Below are positions 34,847 through 64,000 of a stretch of DNA of 64,000 bases, in pieces. The notes under the pieces were generated by a model. That model worked only from the letters and a program-made list of their open reading frames with translations, made no database searches and was not told where the DNA came from. The position numbers were made by a program, and so were the translations under genes. This stretch comes from Daphnia pulex (Eukaryota > Arthropoda > Branchiopoda > Diplostraca > Daphniidae): assembly GCF_021134715.1 (NCBI RefSeq), contig NC_060020.1, positions 7,254,001-7,318,000 of the forward strand, in the 5' to 3' direction. The first letter of the stretch is position 1; the number at the start of each line of letters is the position of its first letter.

Positions 34847-35051
34847 CTACAGTTTATCCTCTGTGAAAGTAATGATCTAATTAAAAATATTTTTAAGTGT
34901 TTAAATAATAAATATCAATTGTATTTGTCCAAAATGTAGGTAGCTGACGTTATCAGGACTTCAGTAATAAAATATTGTTGCTAACACCTGATCCAGCACA
35001 CTACTGATTGTGTTAATAACACTTTATAACTGTATCAAGTTCTTTCCAGCC

Positions 35052-35672
35052 ATGTCTGATAATGAAATTGTATTGAATTATCATAATTCTCTTTTGAGAA
35101 AATCAGATGTGGATCTTCTGAGAAATCCGCACTGGTTAAATGATAGGTTAATTGGTTTTTGGTTTGAATATCTCGAAAATTCCATTCTGGATGAATCAGT
35201 ATGCCTAGTCTGCCCAGAAGTTTCACAGTTTATCAAACTTGGAGAATTATCAGAAACATCTGCATTTGTTGATCCACTTAATTTGCACTCAAGATCTCTA
35301 GTTCTATTGCCTGTAAATGATTCTGTGTTATTGGATCACCCAGGAGGGTCACATTGGAGTTTACTTGTTTATGACTGTTTTGCCAAGAAGTATTACCATT
35401 TTGATTCTTTAATTGGATCCAACTTGAACCATGCCAAGAAAATTGCATATAACTTGAATCTGTCCAATAAGATTGTTGAAGTTAGATGTACCCAACAGCA
35501 GAACTCTTTTGATTGTGGAGTGTTTGTTTGTTGCAATGCCGAAAATATCATGAAGCATTGTTCAGTGAACAAAGGTGAATTAAAATCTGTTTCCCCACTG
35601 AGTATTGATGTTTTTAAAAATCAAAGGAACCATATGCTTCAGGTTATATCAACTCTGTTATGTAACTGTTAA
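35052..35672 (+). CDS. SENP8: Sentrin-specific protease 8 (NEDD8 protease, DEN1/NEDP1)
   Basis: Intronless coding region of 206 residues, close to the 212 of human SENP8. It is a C48 cysteine protease: the catalytic triad is visible as His101 (GGSHWSLL), Asp118 (HFDS) and Cys155 (NSFDCGVFVC), with the oxyanion glutamine in the preceding QQQ (148-150). The N-terminal DVDLLRNPHWLNDRLIGFWF matches the substrate-entry region of the family. By family it processes NEDD8 precursor and removes NEDD8 from cullins and other proteins. The start at 35,052 follows an acceptor-like CTTTCCAG and gives the usual family N-terminus; an in-frame ATG at 35,010 would add 14 residues. A polyadenylation signal lies at 35,679-35,684, only a few bases after the stop. 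Confidence 0.9.
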   Translation: MSDNEIVLNYHNSLLRKSDVDLLRNPHWLNDRLIGFWFEYLENSILDESVCLVCPEVSQFIKLGELSETSAFVDPLNLHSRSLVLLPVNDSVLLDHPGGSHWSLLVYDCFAKKYYHFDSLIGSNLNHAKKIAYNLNLSNKIVEVRCTQQQNSFDCGVFVCCNAENIMKHCSVNKGELKSVSPLSIDVFKNQRNHMLQVISTLLCNC

Positions 35673-42441: not shown

Positions 42442-43322
42442 ATGAAGAATTCACATGTAGCCATCATACTAGTAACTTTATTTTTCCTGGATGGTTGGTG
42501 GACCGGAATACTTAGATGGATTATCTTCAAAATGATGTCTACTGGAATTATTGGTGCTACTTTCAGTACTCTTGTAGATTTTTGCGCTTATCACCCAAAG
42601 ATCTGGGAATCCTCAATCAATCTTTTGTCACAGCCTTCCAGTTCTGAATTGAAGTTTGATTGCCCACCTGGTTAAGTATACAATATTCTGACCCCCTTGC
42701 AGTTTACTAATAAATCAATAATTAAATGTATACCTACATTCTTGCAGGATTTATAGCAGCGCCAAACCAAAGTCATTTCCCGACTAGTAATGGCTGTGGA
42801 GCTGATGGACTCAAAGTAACGATACAAATAAAATCAGCCCAGAATTTTCTTTTATCTATTTTCCGCTATTTTTTTCTTTATATAATGTAGATAGACGTTG
42901 AATGTTTGCCATATAAAGACCAAGAGCTATGCTGCAACACTCACGATATGTGTTACGATAAATGCCACATCATTTCGTCAATGGAAGCTGACGTGCACCG
43001 AGGCCAATGCGATAAAGAATTTAAAAACTGTTTGATAAAAATTTGTTCATTTAAAAGCTGGCAGCGGTACTTGATTTGCCCATTTCGCATCGTACTTACT
43101 AATAAATTCTGGAATGAGAACTGCGAGCAGCCTTTAATCGATGATCGGGAGAAAAGTGAGTTATTACTTTACCAAATATTTATTTCGTCTCCTAACAGTA
43201 TAAAATATTTTTTCTTAGAGTGCGAAGCATCTGTTGAAGTTCTTTATCAATCCGTCCATGGTTGGGGATTTAGTGCTTACTTAAAGGCTCAATCACAAGC
43301 TTGCGTCTGCGTCCCCGGTTGA
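42442..43322 (+). CDS. PLA2G12: Group XII secretory phospholipase A2
   Basis: Four exons (42442-42670, 42748-42815, 42891-43155, 43219-43322) encode 221 residues. A signal peptide starts at the chosen ATG (AIILVTLFFLDGWW). The NGCGADG segment fits the unusual calcium loop of group XII. The catalytic helix reads ELCCNTHDMCYDKC with His117 and Asp118, and the C-terminal half keeps the XII-type cysteine spacing (CEASVEVLYQSV, ending ACVCVPG). By family these are secreted, low-activity enzymes hydrolysing the sn-2 ester of phospholipids. The gene is divergent from TGFBRAP1. Confidence 0.9.
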
Positions 43323-44281: not shown

Positions 44282-47200
44282 ATGTCAGCCGAAAGAGAAG
44301 CGCCGGGAGAAGATAGTATTCGTGTAGTGTGTCGTTTTCGACCTTTAAACGATGCCGAAGAGAGAGCTGGATCGAAATTCGTCGTCAAGTTTCCACCCGG
44401 CACTGACGACCAATGTATAAATTTAGGGGTAAGAATCCTGCAACACCGATAATGTAATTTAATTAAATCAAATAACCACGAGTTCTACTTTTAATGTAGG
44501 GAAAAGTTTACATGTTTGATAAAGTATTCAAACCCAATGCCAGTCAAGAGAAAGTGTACAATGAAGCAGCAAAGAGTATTGTAAAAGGTATTTCTATTTC
44601 TTCTATTAACACTCATTTGAGAAATATCCTTGATCTAAAACACACCTTTTTTCCTGATTAGATGTCCTAATGGGCTATAATGGAACTATATTTGCATACG
44701 GGCAAACATCCTCGGGTAAAACCCACACAATGGAAGGAGTCATGGGAGATCCACATCTACAGGGTATCATCCCACGAATTGTCAACGATATCTTCAATCA
44801 CATCTATGCTATGGAAGAAAACTTGGAGTTCCACATTAAAGTCTCTTATTTTGAAATCTACATGGACAAAATTAGGGATCTTCTTGATGGTAAAACTACT
44901 AAAGAAATTATTGTGTTGTTAGCAGAATAATACCAAACTGTTTTTATTGCAGTATCTAAAGTCAATTTGAGTGTGCATGAAGATAAGAATCGCATCCCTT
45001 ATGTAAAGGGTGTAACAGAAAGATTTGTTACAAGTCCTGAAGAGGTATTTGAAGTGATTGAAGAAGGAAAAGCTAATCGACACATCGCTGTAACAAGTAA
45101 GAATTATTTAGAGACGTAAATTGTGCATCAATTTTCATTGTTTATTTTCAATTACAGACATGAATGAGCACTCCTCTAGGAGCCACTCAGTTTTCCTAAT
45201 TAACGTAAAACAAGAAAACTTAGAAAATCAAAAGAAACTATCGGGTAAACTTTACCTTGTCGATTTAGCTGGAAGTGAGAAAGTAAGTAAAACAAATCAA
45301 CTTTTGGTGTCCTTCGTGAACTTATCGCGTATAATCTTAATTTTCCAGGTGAGCAAAACAGGTGCTGAGGGAACCGTCTTGGATGAGGCAAAAAATATTA
45401 ACAAATCCTTGTCGGCATTGGGAAATGTTATATCTGCATTGGCCGATGGAAATAAATCTCACATACCTTACCGTGATTCAAAATTGACACGTATTCTTCA
45501 AGAATCATTGGGTGGTAATGCCAGAACGACAATTGTTACTTGTTGTTCTCCAGCGTCATTCAATGAATCGGAAACTAAGACTACTCTGGACTTTGGCCGA
45601 AGGTATTGATGAAACAATGTTTATGCTTCTCTCTAAATTATGCCATTTGTTTTGTATTTGTAGAGCAAAAACTATTAAAAACGCCGTCACAGTAAATGAA
45701 GAACTTACTGCCGAAGAATGGAAACGCCGCTTCGAAAAAGAACGCGAGAAGGCTCAACGCTATAAAACAAAATTGGAGATTGCCGAAGCAGAACTCACTC
45801 GTTGGAGATCTGGCGAATCTGTTGGGCAAGAAGAACAAGTATGAAAATTCATTTTGAGATTACTAGATCAACAATCCTGATCTTTGGTTTTATTTAGGTT
45901 AATCTTCGAGATGCTATGGACGTATCTACCATCAGTGTTGACCTGACTCCTGTGGCACCGGTTGCTCCCGTTTTGCCACCTGTTCTTGCTGCCCCTGCCG
46001 TTCGAGCTGATTGGGATTCTGAGCGTGAAAGACTGTACCAACAGTTGGATGATAAGGTTGGTTTGTTGTCCAAGTTTTTCAGTACACCGAACTAAATTTT
46101 TAAAAATCCCTATAGGATGAAGAAATAAATCAGCAAAGTCAGTTAGTGGAAAAGCTTAAGGAACAAATGATGGAACAGGAGGAACTTATTGGTGCTACCC
46201 GCAGAGATTATGAATCGCTACAACAAGAAATGAACCGCATCCAGGCTGAAAACGAATCAGCAAAAGAAGAAGTCAAAGAAGTTTTGCAAGTATGTCACTT
46301 TCATCCCCTCCACGTTCCCCAATACTAAACTTTTCTATCTGTCAAGGCTTTAGAAGAATTGGCAGTTAATTACGATCAGAAGTCTCAGGAAGTGGAAGCT
46401 AAGAACCGCGACAATGAAACAGTCACTGAAGAGTTATCTCAACGTCAAAGCCAGCTTAACAGCACTATGTCTGAACTAGCACAGGTGCGCCACATTTTCG
46501 TAATATTTGATTTTTATTTACGTCATGCTCATATTGCTTTTTAAAGGTGAAAGACACATCTGCCCATCAGCGTCGAAAACTCAACGACTTGTTAACTAGT
46601 TTATTCAAAGATTTGAATGAGATGGGCGTGGCATTTGGGGCTGATTTAAAGTCTTCGCTGCAACCATTTGATTCTAATAGTAGCAAGTCAGAGGAGGAGT
46701 TCACTATGGCTAGAATATATGTATCCAAGATGAAATCGGAGGTGAAAAACCTTGTTCAACGCTGCCAGACTTTAGAATCTTCCCAAAGTGAATCTTCCAA
46801 AAAGATGGACGAATCGGAACGTGAACTGGTGGATTTGCGTCTCTTGATAACCCAACATGAAGCGAAAATGAAAGCGCTTCAAGAGAACATGAAGGTTTGC
46901 CGCTTGAATATATTAAATCTCGTTTCGTTAGATGCAGCCTCGTTTTGTACATTTTAGGAGGTAGAAAACAAGAAGCGTAATCTTGAGGAAGCAGTGGATT
47001 CCTTGAACGAAGAGTGTGCTAAACTTAAAGCTGCCGAACAAATGCAAGCCGTATCCACTATAGACAAGGCAGCTGAACAAGAGCAAGCTCTTTTGATCAA
47101 GGGAGCGCTTGAGCAACAACTTGATCAACACAGAGAAGCTCATCAGAAACAGGTAAGTCTAATATTTTGAAGTAAAAAAATTCTTTAAAATAAATAATAC

Positions 47201-49294: not shown

Positions 49295-51413
<2,119 letters not shown>

Positions 51414-54400
51414 ATGTTTACACTTAAACGTATATTTATTCTTTTTATAAGTCTCGTCACTGTTACGGCAAACCAGCTGCCGCTACCTTCTCATTTGTTG
51501 GCAACGTCACCTGAAGTAAGTCTTATAATTGAAACATATTTAGAAATGTTTCTTTACCATTAATAACTTTGTAAAGCCACCATTTGTAGAAATTCCTGGA
51601 ATTAAAAGCAGTTACAATGCTTTGATTGCAAGCGATACCTTAAATCTGCTGGCCGCGCGTCTTCAATTTTCGTATGCTTAATTTCTTAATATCAAAGGGA
51701 TATCTTGTTTACAAAAAAATATCCGCTTTAGTTTGACTATAACGCACCCGCCTGATTTTCTGTTTGGAGGTTTCAAAAATGGGCAATGGGATGGAATCGT
51801 TGGGCAGCTTCTGCGAAAAGTAAATTTTTTTGAAATATCCAGTAAGAATTTCTTTTACTACAGATTTTTTATCATTAAGGAAGCTGATATGGGGGCTAGT
51901 TTGAATGCCATAACTTACGCGCGATACACCGCAGTCGATTTCAGTGTCCCTGTGATTTACGATGTTACAGGAATACTGATTCCTTTTCCAGATGAAACTT
52001 CAAAAATCATGGCGGCCTTTCTACCATTCAGCATAGAGGTTATTTTCATTTTATTAATATTAATTGAAGTAATTAATATTTCATTCTGTAGGTGTGGATA
52101 GCTTTCATCTCCTCCACCTTTCTGGTTTACTTTACTTTATTAATTGAAGGAAAGATAAATTCGAGCAGAAAAAAATTTGGAGACCATGCAATGTGGGTTG
52201 TAGGCATCATTACTGGTCAAGGTAACATTTAAAAAAACTCTGTAATTAATAACTATTAAAGTAAGCTATAGCTTAAAAACTAAAAAGTCATGGAGACCAA
52301 AATAATGGTGCATAGAAAAAGTGGTTTTAATTGCAGGAAAAAAATAAAGATGAGCATACATCATAAGTCACCACATTTACACTTTTGCCTTAGCTTGAAC
52401 AGGTAAATAGAGTTTGAATTCAGCAGGTAATTCATCTTCAGAATAGAGTCTGTCAGAAAAGTAAATGCGACGAATTCTGCAATTTGCATGAATTTGAATC
52501 CTTAAAGTTTCGACGTAATTTGTTCCGTAAGCACGCCTTGTGAAGTCAGCTAAATTAAATTGGATCTGGTTCCATCCTTCATCAAGCCGCATAGGCATAG
52601 TGCAAATGAAAGGTTTCACTCTTGTAGTTGATTGATAGTTGCTTGCTCTGAATCTACGTCTCACATTTTTATCATCTAGAATCTAAAATGTTTGCAAACT
52701 AAGTAATTATTAAAGATCAATGCATGTGAATTATATATCACTAACCTGAACTTCAAAAGTGAAATACTTTTTCATGTTTTTGACAATCATAACAAGATAT
52801 GGAAGTTTGATTCCAAGAGTTTTCTTTGGATCAGCAGGGCATGTAATGTATGTTGTTGAAACATTAGTTCCAACAATTTCTAAGACAAGGGACTTCATAT
52901 TCATAAAAAAATCAGTTAATTTCTAAGTTTAACGCTGCTTTAAACTGTTTTTTTTTTTTTACCTGAATATCGTTGTCAGTTATTCGCTTGATATGACCGT
53001 TTCGTACGATTTTGTCCCAGAGCTGCAGAGGTTTACTTCCAATGCTATAAAGAACGGATAGAAATCCACTTTGAAAAGTGTTTTTAAACATTTTGCCGGT
53101 TTCAACTATGGACTTATTAGGCTAGAACTAGACTAAGAAATAAGTTTCGAGTAAAATCAGTTGTTTGTGTCAATTGTGTGTTTATTCAATAAACAAACGA
53201 TCGTCATAGCAACGCACCGCTGCCAGATTTTTTCGCTTCCAAGTGCATATTGAAATAAATTTTTAGATTATTATTTTATTTAGTATTTTTTGTTTTAATT
53301 CTAGTTTGAAAATAGTTGGAGTAATTTACTTTATTGTTAATTATAATTGTTTTTCCTCATGCATAAAAGGTGTTGGATATAATGAAAATCGCTTGGGTTT
53401 GCGTCTTGCAGGTGAAACAGTTTAATTTATACGATTTCTTGAATCTTTGTCATTTAAAATATTATCTATTTTTTTGTTTCATTTCCTTAATAGCGGCCAC
53501 ATGGTGTTTAACGATGGTAGTATTCATATACGTTTACACTGGGGTGCTTACGGCTTTGTTAGCTGTTCCCAACTACGTTCCTATAATAAATACTTTAGAT
53601 GAATTAGCTACGAGCTCCACCATCAAGCCGGTCACGATTAAGAGTACCGCAGTCGATGATATCATGCTGGTTTGAGATTTAAGATATTCCAAACATTGAT
53701 ATCAGGGTAACGGTTTTTATATCTTTATTCAGAATGCCAAAAATGGTACCTATAAACTAATCGGCGACACCTTTCGCAAATACCCAAATGAAACTTTAGT
53801 AGCCAACACTTTAATTGGTGTTCAACGTGCAGTCGAAGGAAAATATGGATTTTTAGAGGTAGGCCAAAATACAAAAGTACAAAATTTCAGCAAGTAGATT
53901 GGAGCTGCCACTGTAATCAGCATATCTGAATACGTATTTTTAGCCACGAATGTCCCTTTTGTCGCTGATGGAAAACGATCGCAAGGAACACAACAGTTGT
54001 CGTGTAACTTTGGCTAAACAAACATTTTATCCTCGTGCTTTCGCATACTTTTTGCCAAAGAAAAGTCCGTTTAAAGATGCATTTGATCGACAGTAAGTAC
54101 GAAATTTATGGGGTGCGGAATGAACACTTTTTCCAAAAAAAATGTTCAATAATCGATTACCATATTTGATGTGAAAACAAATTGATAATCGATTTGAATA
54201 TTGAAATCAAGTTGAAAATATATTCAAAAATTGAAAACGTTTTGAAAACGATTTCATAAATTGAAAATGATTTTGAAAAATGAAAACGATTTCGAAAAAC
54301 TAAAATGAATTTGAAAAACTAAAATGATTTCGAAAAATGAAAACGAATTTGAAAAATGAAAATGAACTTGAAAAATGAAAATGAACTTGAATATCCATAC

Positions 54401-57111: not shown

Positions 57112-57900
57112 CAAAATGATTAGTCAACCGCATGTTGTAGGAAAACATTTCCTAAACATGATCGATATTATTGTTCTGCAAAGCTGTTACAGGTGTAAGC
57201 CTGGTGGGTTTTGTTGTAAGATTGTATTGGCAAAACACCACAACTTTTTGTCACATTTCTTTTATAGCTCTATACGTTAATGTTTTTATTATGTAACTAG
57301 GCAAGAAAAACAAAAAATGAATAAATAATTCGGAATTTCAAAACAAAATATCTTCTAATAAAAAATTGCAACGTTGTTGAAACTCGCCGATTTCAAAATT
57401 TCGTTTCTTTAACAAAAAAAAGTAAAAATCGACAAAACAAACGTGCCAAACGTGCTAAAACTTAATAGTCTTAAACTAACAAGTGAACAGTGAACAAACT
57501 CTTATTATCTCACTGATCGATTAGACTCATCGAGGTACTGAGTGTAAAATTGCCAGCACGACATTTTTAACATCAATTCATTTTCATCCCAATGAGTAGC
57601 CCACCTCAACTGCTGCTGACTTTGATGCCATTTGAACTCTTTCCCATGGTAAGTGCTTTCTACTTCATAGTTACTGTAAATTAAGACGTGGCAAGATATC
57701 AGCAATACGCTGCTTTCATTATAATCGCCGGGGGAATGTTTTGAATTCGTAGTAGAGGTTAGAACGGGCAATATATAGTAGATAAGGGCAGGAATATGCT
57801 GTTCGTCAATATTCTGCAGCATAATAAAAGAATCAGGTAGTCTGCTATTGATTTATTATGCTGCCATGTGTTACAAAGCAATGATATAATCGGATATAAT
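57112..57900. other. Noncoding DNA downstream of the carboxypeptidase and SMKR1-like genes
   Basis: AT-rich DNA between two genes that converge on it. It contains a minus-strand frame of 105 codons at 57,505-57,822 with protein-like composition but no recognised family. It is otherwise likely to be 3' UTR of the two neighbours. Confidence 0.4.
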
Positions 57901-59669
57901 CTAAAGGATTTCAAGGGCCATAGCTTTAATTCCATTCCATGTTTCAACAGCTGTTTCCATGATTTGTGATGCAGGTAATTCAAAACCGAATTCTCCCGTG
58001 TCTCGCAATTCGAGAAGATAGGCATATAAGATATCCTCTGCTGTGTAAGCGTGATCTAACGTCGTTCCAGATGCAATATCTGCAATAAATAGGTCAAATT
58101 TTTATAAGAAGCTAGAATCGTTGGCAGAAAAGTCTAGAATATTTGGTTGTACATATTGTGTCGGCATGATTTCCATATTGATACTGAGTTCCGTAAGTAT
58201 TTTGAAGAGCTTGGACTCCAATGGACATTACGCGCAACTAGTACGTAACAAACAGAATAGAAAGTCAATCAGTTTCTTTTTTAATAAGTGTTTTCAAGCA
58301 ATCGATTACCATTTCGTCATACTCTGCTGGTAGATCATAAGTATAGCCGTAAGGTGACATCCACTTTAAGTAGATCATTGCAGGATCGTCGATTATCCCA
58401 GAAAATGGAACAAGATGAAAACAGTTTCCATAGAGTAGTAAATTCTTTAAACATATTCACGTACGAGTTGAGAGTAGGTGTGAATTGATATGGCAGCCTT
58501 TACTCGAGGTCGATTGGCTATCAGCACATCCCTGACAGCGCTTGATTCTGCTTCAGAGAAACTGTTGGGGCCGTGATATGTATCAATGCAGGGTACATCT
58601 GACGATCCAGCTCCACCAAAGTTTGTGTCGAAATTTCGGTTAATGTCGACGCCAAAGCAGGTGCCGGTCGGCATGCGATTTTTCCGCCATAAACGATCCT
58701 GTCGCAGGTTTCTTCTTAGAAATTGTTCTTTCAATTAGACTTAATGTAATTGTTCTACATACCGTAGTCCACGAGTAAGTGTAGCCATCAGGGTTAGTTA
58801 CCGGCGTAATTTTCCAATCGAATCCGTCAACCAAACGAGTAATTTCGCTATCGCTTCCGTATTTAGTAGCTAACTATAAAATCATACAAATATTTTTAAA
58901 AATTCGCTTTTATAAATCAGATGGAAAAAGAAATTATTCATAAGTATCTTACTTCGTTTATAAACCAAAGGCAGGTGGACGGGGCGGCCCATTCTCTGGC
59001 GTGAACTGCGCATTCGAAAACGATCACTTGTTTCTCTGGATCACTTCCGGTGCTAATGGTAGCCATAGTTAAACTACGATTCTCGTAAGTCCCGCCGATA
59101 GACGAAACAGAAACGAGAGGATTTTCCAAGGCCAGGTTTTCCAGATAGCTAACAATCTATAGCAAAAAATTATGATCTAACGACCTTTTATTACAAGATG
59201 AATAATTTATTGTTTTACCTCCTCGTAAGTGTGGTAATTTTCAAAATCGAAAGCTTTTTGATTTTTGGTGAGTTCCCGACGGAGTTCAATACTTGTGCGC
59301 TCTTCTTCTATAGCTCGTCCGAGGTCTTCGACTTTAATGTGGTGTTGTATTCCGGCCGATTTCAACGAATGCGCTAAATTGTCGTAATTAGCTGGAGTGA
59401 CATGGATATCCACTGGCTGACCGACATGAAACGGCTCCGACCAAAAGTCTAAGGTTTCATCCAAATTTTGCAAGTTCCGCAAATAGCTCAGTTGAACTAC
59501 ATTTGCTGCTCGGGATCGAACTACCTTATGACTTTTTGTAACGAATTAAAAAATGAAAAATTGTTCTGAATTTTGTACTGCTTACCCAGTATAATCGACC
59601 CGATCGCCTAATGAAGATGAGATGTAAACAACGAGAACGAAAGCAACAGTAAAAAAATAAAGCCTCATT
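57901..59669 (-). CDS. Zinc carboxypeptidase A-type zymogen (M14A)
   Basis: Eight exons and 418 residues, the normal procarboxypeptidase length: 59586-59669, 59219-59524, 58953-59156, 58763-58873, 58465-58698, 58310-58363, 58153-58237, 57901-58079. A signal peptide ([21 protein letters not shown]) and an activation propeptide run to about residue 115. The catalytic domain has zinc ligands His182 and Glu185 (HAREW) and His308 (ISIHTYSQL), the substrate-binding [11 protein letters not shown] and DINRNFD, and catalytic Glu383 in [12 protein letters not shown]. The residue equivalent to bovine position 255 is Leu367 ([10 protein letters not shown]), which favours hydrophobic C-terminal side chains (A-type) rather than basic ones. 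Likely a secreted digestive exopeptidase, activated by trypsin-like cleavage. Confidence 0.95.
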
Positions 59670-60034
59670 TTGTTAATAACTTCAGAAAGTTGAAACTCTA
59701 AAGTACAACTGCGTTGTCCACTAATATTCGTGTTGGTAATACACTAATACCTCGCTAACCAAATCTGCTGGTATCTTGGTTATTTGTTTAATTTCATCTT
59801 CAGTGATAGCGCGCTGTAATTTTTTTTAAATAGTAGCGATATTAACGCAACTCCATTTATTTATTTTTGATCGTTATCGCTACTAAAGAGGTCATATTTT
59901 TCAAGATTACATAAGCTTAACCTTGTACTTTTTTCCACTATTGGATCAACATCAATAACAGACTTTATAGAAAATGAAATTAAAGCGATAAAATTCTTAA
60001 CTGAAATTAAAGAATAACGCTATGAGACTCTTTA
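59670..60034. other. Gap between the carboxypeptidase start and the integrin stop
   Basis: 365 bp of AT-rich DNA. It should contain the carboxypeptidase promoter and the integrin 3' UTR, since both genes run on the minus strand. No clear element is seen. Confidence 0.5.
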
Positions 60035-62561
60035 TCAAGAATTAGTTTCCTTTTGTGAATCGTCGGCCTTTGTCAATTCTTCTCCATCGGTTTGTTGGGT
60101 GGGTGGCTTTTTCCTTTTGAAAAATCCCAACTGTGAAAAAAAAAATTCGTGATTCATTTTGAACGACTGAATAAATTTGTTTGAATCGTTTTACCTTGTA
60201 CAAAATGCCCGTAATGATTGCGAGTATGAGAAAGGCTCCCAAGCCACTGGCAACATAAACCCACCATGGAATAGCATCGACAACCGCGTTTGCTTTACTG
60301 TCAATCATGAAAGTGAGTGAGTTGGTGCTAATGATGTTGCTATTTTCCTTGGAGAAGATAGGCAACAACCGATTAGGTTTTGTTGTTTTGTCAACCGGCT
60401 CAATAGTCATTTTCGCTTGGGCGGTTGAAGCGAAATCTTGGATGCCAGGTATGGCGTAGATGGTATTAGTTAGACATTTCTTCGATCCTGACGTAAAATT
60501 CAATTCTCGAAATAATTGATTGCGATTGTTTTCTAAGAATAAGATTCGGCTGTTGTCCTTTTCGGCGTTGAAATCCAGTACTATTGAGACCCGAAATTCC
60601 ATTTCTTTCTCGACACTCGAACCGGAGTATGTTATACAGAAGCTGATGTCTTCGCAAGCTACCGGGATGGTGGTTACACCATCGGTGGAATTAGTGATGG
60701 AGCATTTACTCGTCTGCTGTAGTTTAATGATTTTGGAGACGAAATTTAGGTCGCTGGTTATTTTGGCTATTGGACGAGCGGGGATGTAAACAACAGCGGC
60801 AGACTCGTAGGCACCGATGATTACATCACTATATTTGTTCCCATCGAAATCACCTCCCGCGATGGAAAATCCAAACGTTTTCAGATGCGGACTAAACATA
60901 TTTCCGGAAATGATTTGAGGGTTATCTCGCAGGCCGTTCTCTGACCCTTGATAAATATAAACTGTCCCAAGTCCGTCGTTCTCGTACGGTGCCCCAATAG
61001 CCAAGTCGTTGAATCCATCCGCATTAGTATCGCCAATCGCCGCCACAGCATACCCGAACCTACTACCGGATGTTAGCCCTCTGAGTTCTTGAGGTCTATC
61101 TTGGCTATCAAAGGTGTTCTTTGATGTTTGATAGTAAATGTAGACGGCGCCAATTTCAACTTTAAGTTCGGTACCGTTGTAATCGGTGTGGTGAGGAGCG
61201 CCGACGACAATGTCATCCCTGCCATCACCCGTGAAATCCGATACGGCTAGCGAAGCTCCAAAGTGCTCACCTGGCTGGTATCCTACTAAACTTTCTATCT
61301 CCTTTTTAGTGTCTTTGTTTAACATGTATACCTGCCAGAAAAGACAGCGCATCGTTCAGGTTTTGTTTAGCACAGGAACTGGCCAAGGTTTTGAATAAAG
61401 CGCGGGAGATTATCTAGATACCTTTCCAGCAAAGGATGAATTGATGTGGAAAGCAACAGAGGCGAGCAGGAACTCTTGTCCAAACTTGCGCATTCCGTAC
61501 GTTCCGGATGCCATGGCGTAACCTAGATACCATTTATCCAAGAATGGATAAGCCGCTGGATAAAGCAAACTCGCTACATCATTTGGTTTGTCATCCTTGA
61601 GGCAAGTTGGACCTCCAAGGAGAGGCTTCAGCGAACCCTTCGCAGTCTGTAAAAGAGATGAATTTTTGTTTGAAGAGTTTAAAAGAAAAAAAAAATAGTC
61701 TGAAGGAAGTAGATTTAAAAGGAGGTCAAACTCACTGTCATGTATGTTGCTGAAAATCCGGACAAACAAACACCTTGAAAAGAAAATGCGTTAAAATCAT
61801 ATATCCATACCTTACTAAAGGAAATTGTATTAATGCTTCCTTACGCCGTGGAAGAAAAAGTTTAACTTTGCTAAAGCTTTGAAGATTATTTTCACTTGTG
61901 AAGCATTCCCCTTCAGCCTGGGATCCAGCACGAGGTGAACATAACTGTAAAATGATTGAGAATCGTATCATTTCGTAGAGCTATCTCAAAATTTAATTTA
62001 AAAAAGAGCGTACTAAAGAAAACTCTCGGTTGCTAACAACGGTGGCACCAAACCACCCATTTTTGACTGGTTCTAAGGTTATCCGTTCTAAGAGATTGAA
62101 ATCATAATATAATGTAAAGACGTTATGTTATGTTTCATAATTTTGCTTGTTTGCCACTTACCACTGAGTGAGCTTATTCTAACTTTTTTGCAAAGGAAAC
62201 CAGCTTCGAGGTCAACTGAAGTATTACATTTATAAACCGCTCCTTGAAATACATTTTCACCTGGCGACCCAACCAACCATCTATACCAACGATTAGCCAC
62301 CAAATGGGAAATTGAATTAGATTTATGTAGCTTCACTCACAAAATAAGCAAGGTAAAATGGGTTGATATATACTCTGCTGGTGTTTCGGTTAAACGATGT
62401 GCGCTCAAACTATAGCCAAAATAGGATTTTGGGGAATTTGTAAAGACTCGTTCCTTCCTGACGTCCAAATTGTGAATAAATGAAGCGTGAACAATCCAGG
62501 GAAATAAGAAGATAAACAAAATTTTAAGAGTGACCCATCGAGCGATGATCATGTTGACCAT
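60035..62561 (-). CDS. Short integrin alpha subunit lacking calf domains
   Basis: Eight exons and 669 residues: 62341-62561, 62162-62280, 62014-62087, 61845-61944, 61736-61773, 61422-61646, 60195-61331, 60035-60130. A signal peptide is followed by propeller blades: FGYSLSAH, LVGSPGENVFQGAVYKC, WFGATVVS, and CLSGFSA. Blades 5-7 carry calcium loops at 291-299 (DFTGDGRDD), 360-368 (DTNADGFND) and 420-428. A single thigh-like beta domain (about 440-600) with four or five cysteines follows. The chain then enters a membrane helix at about 615-637, and the tail has the hallmark GFFKR at 640-644. Typical alpha subunits are about 1,000 residues with calf-1 and calf-2 after the thigh; here a single uninterrupted 1,137-nt exon joins thigh to membrane. 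No inserted I domain is present. It may pair with a beta subunit as a short-legged receptor, or act as a regulator; neither is shown. Confidence 0.9.
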
Positions 62562-64000
62562 AGTTTCTTAGGACCAATTCTACTCGCTGTTAACTATTCA
62601 AGACTAAAAAACTAAAAACTAGAGACTCAAATCTAATACTCACTGTCGAATAAAAAAACGATCCATGTTTGCACAATGTTATAGGATATGGTTTGCGGTT
62701 TCGATGATATTGTCGGTCGTCGTCAGTTCCTGCTTTCTTTATCGTTAAACATGTATATCTAAAGTCTTATCTGTATTATTGCAAACCATGGAAAGGGAAC
62801 ATGTATGTTAGTCTGGGAGCTGGGCGACAAAAAAATGACAATGATTTAGCAAAAGGTTTTTGAGGCTAAAATATGGTTAGGGGGGGGGGGGTATGACACA
62901 CACGAAAAGCCACGTCTGTCGACTGGCGGCCGGGGCGTTCAAGCGTGACACTATCCCGAAGTCGGTGGGAACAGTAAAAAAATCCACTTTGTTTAGAAAA
63001 TCTGAACTATCTTAAATTATATGGGACGCGGATGTACAGTATCCTTCATATAAATCCAAACCCCTTTTGGTATCCTTCTTTATTTAAAAAAAATATTTCG
63101 GCATTTTTTCTTAATTCTAATAAATGAACTTTGTAAAACAATTAATTCTACACGTAATATGAAGTCTTGAAAGTTAAAAACAAAAAATATAAATTAAACT
63201 GGGCTTTTGAAAAAGAACTGCGTTCGGATTTTAATCTTTTATTGCAGGATACTGTACAACTAAACTCGGCGGTTGAGATGACGGGAAGCTTCTTCTTTGT
63301 TTCGTCCCATCCGTGTGCTGTGACCAATAATAACATGTGCGTGTCTCTCTCCCAAACCCCAACGTGCAAAGCCACTCCTGATGAAGACATTCGAACATCT
63401 TACACACAAACATAACACACTGATCTATAAAACAAAACGAAATAAAAATTCTACAACAAAGGGATGCTACTTTTTCTAAAAAAAAAGATCTTCTTTTGAC
63501 ATACTCTGTAGCGGAGAAAATGAGAATCGGGGGAGATTCATTTAGACCGTCGTATAGATCGTATTGTCGTCAGTTTGCGTTTGTTATATTGAGGTATTAT
63601 AAATAGTCGTATATAGTAAAAGAGCTGCGCAGACAACAAAAGTATAGAGGACGGTAGAACGGAGAACGGTATTTATCTTATCGCATTTCGTCGCTGAGGA
63701 AACTCATGCTGCAACCGCGTCGGATCAGATAGATAAAGGCAGACAAAAGTTATATATATACAGAGTTTGGTAGAAGACAGGGTAAAAACCATAACGTCTG
63801 TTAGTCAAGAGTTTCCCGAGACGTTCGGTATGCTCTCACGAAAGAGGAGCAGAAAAAAACGGGTAATATAGGGAAGAAATTTGAACCGCCAAAAATTTAG
63901 CTGCCAATAACACTAACCAAATAATGAAAAAGTAATCGGTTAAACAAAATAAATGCATAATTAAAAAAAAAAAAAAAAACAGTTTACTGCATTTTCTGTT
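62562..64000. other. Noncoding DNA upstream of the integrin gene to the window edge
   Basis: No recognisable coding region. The part nearest 62,562 should include the integrin promoter. A run of 13 G lies at about 62,879-62,891 and an A-rich run at 63,963-63,979. AATAAA-like sites near 63,438 are not tied to a gene. Frames at 63,148-63,415 on both strands have no domain. Confidence 0.5.

Follow-up and report, generated by a model that had tools for sequence, protein, structure and literature searches.

In ordinary integrins, calf-1 and calf-2 of the alpha chain stand beside the I-EGF2-4 modules and the beta tail domain of the beta chain, and the change from the bent to the extended state occurs at the genu (thigh/calf-1) and the knee (I-EGF1/2). 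An atypical integrin, alpha-V beta-8, does not use the bent state. The bent and extended states and the separation of the tails are treated in PMC7203660. Nearest to the subject of this work among published statements, as far as the consulted part of the source goes, is one on the alpha integrins of the oyster Crassostrea gigas, which are described as lacking a conserved thigh and conserved calves and as having legs down to ~146 amino acids (PMC7390872); it is based on gene models and homology modelling, and that part describes neither a fusion of the thigh to the membrane nor a matching short beta chain. Here we analysed 64,000 nucleotides of the Daphnia pulex genome (NCBI RefSeq assembly GCF_021134715.1, contig NC_060020.1, positions 7,254,001 to 7,318,000; hereafter the window) and describe in it a short alpha gene that is, judged from its sequence, a genuine integrin alpha by descent with its lower leg (calf-1 and calf-2) missing. 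New here is the finding of an EGF-less beta locus alongside this calf-less alpha; the two could form a matched short heterodimer with neither genu nor knee. We found neither a calf-less arthropod alpha nor an EGF-less beta in the titles and abstract openings of the open-access literature searched, which is no proof of absence, and the word 'integrin' is absent from the main text of a D. pulex immune-gene survey (PMC2685406).

We modelled the gene by assigning splice sites from sequence signals in the window, with one assembly as the basis. The short alpha gene (copy A) runs on the minus strand from 62,561 to 60,035 and has eight exons encoding 658 amino acids, with GT-AG at all seven introns. 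Exon 1 (62,374-62,561) carries the start codon ATG at 62,561, a hydrophobic leader and the beginning of the propeller, and is followed by a donor GT. The propeller continues through exons 2 (62,162-62,280, bounded by AG and GT), 3 (62,014-62,087), 4 (61,845-61,944), 5 (61,736-61,773, only 38 bp) and 6 (61,422-61,646). Exon 7 (60,195-61,331) is an uninterrupted frame of 379 codons that holds blades 5-7, the thigh domain and the transmembrane helix, without calf-1 or calf-2. Exon 8 (60,035-60,130) supplies the cytoplasmic tail LGFFKRKK, in which GFFKR lies at 60,127-60,113, and the stop codon TGA at 60,037-60,035. The start, the stop and the limits of the last two exons coincide with those in a first-pass annotation made from the DNA letters, which had described a propeller, one thigh-like domain and a GFFKR tail with no calf domains. 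That architecture was borne out by Pfam, by phmmer and by genome searches for calf domains; the predicted length of 669 residues was not, presumably through other splice choices in the 5' exons. The first-pass annotation did not include a duplicate copy of the gene, a full-length neighbour or the EGF-less beta chain, a possible match for the short alpha, all of which we describe below.

Pfam scanning of the protein recovered the FG-GAP propeller (PF01839) in three stretches at 84.9 bits and, directly after it, the thigh domain Integrin_A_Ig_1 (PF08441; residues 433-579, 60,339-60,779), which scored 53.8 bits against a cut-off of 26 over profile positions 1-145 of 157, and 57.5 bits in the genome search; a fold match agreed with the assignment. 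The tail motif PF00357 scored 17.7 bits in the protein scan, below the cut-off of 20.2, and 20.7 bits in the genome search. No match to calf-1 (PF20805) or calf-2 (PF20806) was found by Pfam in the 658-residue protein. In phmmer searches of the PDB, the best matches were alpha-V (4.9e-51) and alpha-5 (1.7e-46), with residues 31-539 aligning to human alpha-5 and residues 567-651 aligning to alpha-V over its membrane-proximal end, helix and tail (E = 1.9e-8 for helix and tail). The transmembrane helix, WWVYVASGLGAFLILAIITGILY (residues 604-626, 60,198-60,266), matched the membrane segments of alpha-V and alpha-IIb. Human alpha-V, alpha-5 and alpha-IIb, which have no I domain, align with the short alpha in propeller, thigh, membrane helix and GFFKR tail, but their calf-1, calf-2 and genu cysteine pair are missing here, and the 658 residues compare with 1,018-1,048 in alpha-V chains. 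All four thigh cysteines are kept; the genu pair is lost, and the short alpha has no counterpart of the genu disulphide loop CGSDDIC of its full-length paralogue. A hidden exon between thigh and membrane helix is ruled out, as both lie within one open exon.

To the first-pass annotation the signal peptide, the calcium loops and the tail had also looked intact. This holds for the tail and, by translation, for the canonical calcium loops of blade 5 (DFTGDGRDD, residues 280-288, 61,212-61,238) and blade 6 (DTNADGFND, residues 349-357, 61,005-61,031). The loop of blade 7 (DFDGNKYSD, residues 409-417, 60,825-60,851) has lysine where glycine is usual, no calcium loop was seen on inspection of blade 4, and the signal peptide was recognised by eye alone. 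An AlphaFold2 (AF2) model of exon 7 alone, with three sequences in the alignment, had a mean predicted local distance difference test score (pLDDT) of 65.2 and included the membrane helix (exon residues 356-378). It matched integrin alpha headpieces, with the matching rows of one structure search spanning exon residues 1-333, but pLDDT fell below 50 between exon residues 316 and 361.

The genome to which the window belongs (133,188,837 bases in 13 contigs) holds a second copy of the gene. A 3.3-kb block at window positions 59,515-62,808, on the minus strand, is 98.0% identical to G000:C4:7366663-7369954 (copy B), which lies 53 kb away in the same orientation; exon 7 of copy B (C4:7,367,343-7,368,479) is 100% identical to that of copy A over 379 residues. 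Between window positions 59,700 and 61,799 the copies have no differing columns over at least 2.1 kb, introns included, and between 61,800 and 62,799 they differ by 39 substitutions and 28 gap columns among 1,013 columns (~4% substitutions). Exonic differences amount to 36 alignment columns, all in exons 1-4, and each of the three exonic indels is 3 bp long. The differences that change residues are confined to codons 1-160 (window 61,850-62,561), which span the leader and the opening portion of the propeller; 25 codons differ there, 10 synonymously and 15 non-synonymously, giving a non-synonymous distance (dN) of 0.047 and a synonymous distance (dS) of 0.113. Neither copy has an interrupted frame, and the introns of both are GT-AG. 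The pattern looks like an older duplication in which the 3' part was homogenised later; gene conversion, or else a collapse in the assembly, may account for the identity of that part. A ~205-bp repeat at window positions 62,809-63,016 borders the 5' end of copy A, and inverted copies of it lie at C4 ~7,366,395-7,366,598, near the 3' end of copy B, and at C4 ~7,318,197-7,318,399; it may be a small mobile element that took part in the duplication.

Profile searches counted seven integrin alpha loci in this genome: the two short copies and a full-length gene, all on contig C4, and one each on C6, C2, C3 and C11, the last known by calf matches alone. Calf-1 matches exceeded the cut-off at C6, at the full-length C4 gene, at C2 and at C11, and the C3 alpha had two below it (15.4 and 17.6 bits), so that among the seven loci only the two short copies have no calf-1 match at all. 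Genome-wide searches with the calf-1 and calf-2 profiles placed no match in the window among the best candidates scored. Calf domains elsewhere near the gene are ruled out as well: the sole calf-1 match on C4 is that of the full-length neighbour, and no calf-2 match on C4 rose above the search threshold. FG-GAP-like fragments were also seen at C12:6286328 and C12:6305655, which have identical scores and lie ~19 kb apart, with a further match at C11:5984897.

The full-length paralogue (G000:C4:7370083-7373764) lies 380 bp upstream of copy B and encodes 964 amino acids in 12 exons, with calf-1 at 73.8 bits and calf-2 at 24.0 bits (cut-off 23.6). As in the short alpha, the thigh follows the propeller and an intron stands just before GFFKR, and the two chains are 55% identical in blades 5-7; unlike the short alpha, the paralogue has calf-1, calf-2 and a longer tail. 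Synonymous distance between the two is saturated, which indicates that their split is old and that the frame of the short alpha has survived for long. Using the C6 alpha as an outgroup and 322 shared columns of exon 7, we counted 14 unique residues in the short alpha and 18 in the paralogue over blades 5-7 (182 columns); the head of the short alpha thus evolves no faster than that of the paralogue. From this constraint we infer that selection maintains the short alpha as a working gene, and that it is most likely functional.

How the lower leg was lost is suggested by the exon order. The thigh exon of the paralogue reaches only just into calf-1; the calf exons follow it, then an exon with the end of calf-2 and the helix, and after that come the intron and GFFKR. 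The short alpha keeps an intron at this pre-GFFKR position, and its thigh part and helix part occupy a single exon. The simplest account would be an in-frame genomic deletion of ~300 codons plus introns (964 versus 658 residues).

Three beta loci (C9, C7 and C3) were found with the betaI and cytoplasmic-tail families. Those on C9 and C3 contain EGF exons, with EGF-family matches above cut-off at both; one of the six EGF pieces scanned singly scored nothing. The C7 gene (G000:C7:3287366-3290298, plus strand) has 14 exons, GT-AG at all 13 introns and a modelled length of 608 amino acids. It encodes a PSI domain (PF17205, 35.5 bits), hybrid domain, betaI domain (PF00362, 291.3 bits) with the metal-ion-dependent adhesion site (MIDAS) motif DLSNS, and a return to the end of the hybrid domain (IECDECPCERADS); an 80-bp intron follows, and then SCPHQCDELTYC, read as a divergent beta tail domain, a helix and a cytoplasmic tail (PF08725, 68.3 bits) with the two NPxY/F motifs NPLY and NPAF. 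No EGF family matched the protein in Pfam, and in two genome searches none of the 13 and 9 EGF-family matches fell on C7. Residues 28-450 of the C7 beta aligned by phmmer to 11-450 of human beta-3, and residues 437-602 to 598-759; the two chains are alike outside the skipped stretch of beta-3 (~450-598), which consists of the I-EGF modules and is absent from the C7 beta. In a partial model of the C9 beta, phase-0 introns follow CEKPGNP and precede TCPSRCDDF, with the EGF exons between them, and one intron in C7 joins these two positions, so that loss of the EGF exon block would have been frame-neutral. The C7 betaI domain lacks a short cysteine loop that is present in the C9 beta (ESCGGPPIGC) and in human beta-3. 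The exon with the second half of betaI scored 98.0 bits in C9, 91.4 in C7 and 80.9 in C3, and with a score this near those of the others the C7 beta does not look decayed.

By its sequence, the short alpha has a normal head and thigh joined, with little between, to a normal membrane helix and GFFKR tail. We propose that it most likely pairs with the C7 chain, its candidate partner as the sole EGF-less beta. A thigh at the membrane would scarcely get as far as the head of a full-length beta in its extended state, yet would roughly match a beta that runs from hybrid to tail domain, and the short heterodimer is proposed for this reason. The head of such a pair might stand at perhaps half the usual height. 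Lacking both genu and knee, the receptor would have no place to bend, and only the thigh and hybrid domains would link ligand binding to tail separation. Its metal motifs for ligand binding would be the usual ones (DLSNS in beta, the calcium loops in alpha), as would its membrane clasp (GFFKR and DRKEYAKF). Overall, we lean, with restrained confidence, towards an in-frame calf-less alpha kept by selection and most likely pairing with the C7 beta as a hinge-less short integrin. The fuller picture is offered tentatively: a matched short-legged integrin in which an alpha without calf-1 and calf-2 and a beta without I-EGF1-4 carry similar cuts, both hinges are gone, the bent state is impossible, regulation is by headpiece opening and leg separation, and the ligand is held nearer the membrane. 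The natural integrin alpha-V beta-8 (PDB 6om1) is likewise non-bending, but beta-8 keeps its legs, which here would be gone.

Several observations weigh against a constrained short alpha paired with the C7 beta. In the thigh (140 columns), unique residues number 26 in the short alpha and 17 in the full-length paralogue, and over all 322 columns 40 and 35; the excess over the 322 columns comes from the thigh of the short alpha, which is freer, as it should be with its lower contacts lost. In the 5' exons the two copies show a dN/dS of ~0.42, which is moderate constraint only. The junction (residues ~562-596) has no convincing homology, in either of two paralogues, to the end of the thigh or of calf-2: in pairwise alignments with 500 shuffles, none of the four comparisons rose clearly enough above the shuffles to place the deletion joint, which should lie within residues 562-596, and in the best of them 73 of the 500 shuffles scored as high. 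The isolated junction (82 amino acids) found no phmmer match at E up to 10, and the AF2 scores below 50 extend across it. Unlike the shuffle test, phmmer, in its match of residues 567-651, aligned the junction region with the calf-2 end of alpha-V; by that alignment, which the shuffled comparisons did not confirm, at most the last strand of calf-2 may be retained. On the beta side, the tail domain of C7 (PF07965) is weak, at 16.8 bits against a cut-off of 33.6, although the phmmer alignment runs across it, and a genome search with this family matched C3 and C9 only. What connects the C7 beta to the short alpha is their matched architecture.

The short alpha might instead serve as a regulator or decoy by joining one of the ordinary betas that have EGF modules (C9 or C3), the mismatched legs leaving a dimer that is locked, poorly adhesive or retained inside the cell. 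Two of the three beta loci have EGF exons, one beta commonly partners many alphas, and the membrane helix and tail of the short alpha are intact, all of which would suit such a role. Judged from known integrin structures, however, the head of an extended full-length beta would stand well above any point that a membrane-fused thigh could reach, and the genome encodes a beta of matching length on C7; we regard this pairing as unlikely. More doubtful still is the idea that the gene is a relic or an unexpressed duplicate, with the calf deletion having abolished its function, the copies now drifting and their identical 3' parts reflecting recent gene conversion. The moderate dN/dS of the 5' part and the somewhat accelerated thigh would fit this. 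Against it, both copies are open with GT-AG introns and in-frame indels, blades 5-7 are as constrained as in the full-length paralogue, and the saturated synonymous distance from that paralogue speaks for a frame that survived long. A pseudogene is disfavoured on these grounds, in agreement with the first-pass annotation, to which the gene had resembled a functional short receptor rather than a decayed gene.

An artefact, in which calf domains are hidden by mis-assembly or by missed exons, is in our judgement very improbable. The source is a single assembly, and the identity of the copies over at least 2.1 kb could also be produced by collapse, but thigh and membrane helix share one intronless exon, an identical thigh-to-helix junction is present at two loci whose 5' parts have diverged and whose flanks differ, and the calf matches on C4 are only those of the separate full-length gene.

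Other genes were recognised in the window. A carboxypeptidase-type gene lies downstream of the short alpha on the minus strand at ~57,900-59,670, with limits set by eye, and contains a Propep_M14 activation peptide (71 bits by Pfam, frame 59,207-59,545). Pfam also matched pieces of a Ulp1-type protease (34,992-35,672), a group XII phospholipase A2 (42,891-43,322), a kinesin motor (45,112-45,609), a spermine/spermidine synthase (49,783-50,145) and a glutamate-receptor ligand-binding region (51,682-52,101).

Bending and extension at the genu and knee are central to models of integrin activation, and the short alpha may provide a natural test of how far integrins depend on them at all. If the proposed pairing is true, a hinge-less receptor that has kept its head and its transmembrane and tail switch would separate extension from headpiece opening and leg separation, and leg length could evolve as a unit in both chains. 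The gap between membrane and ligand would then be much smaller, with expected consequences for close-contact adhesion or engulfment.
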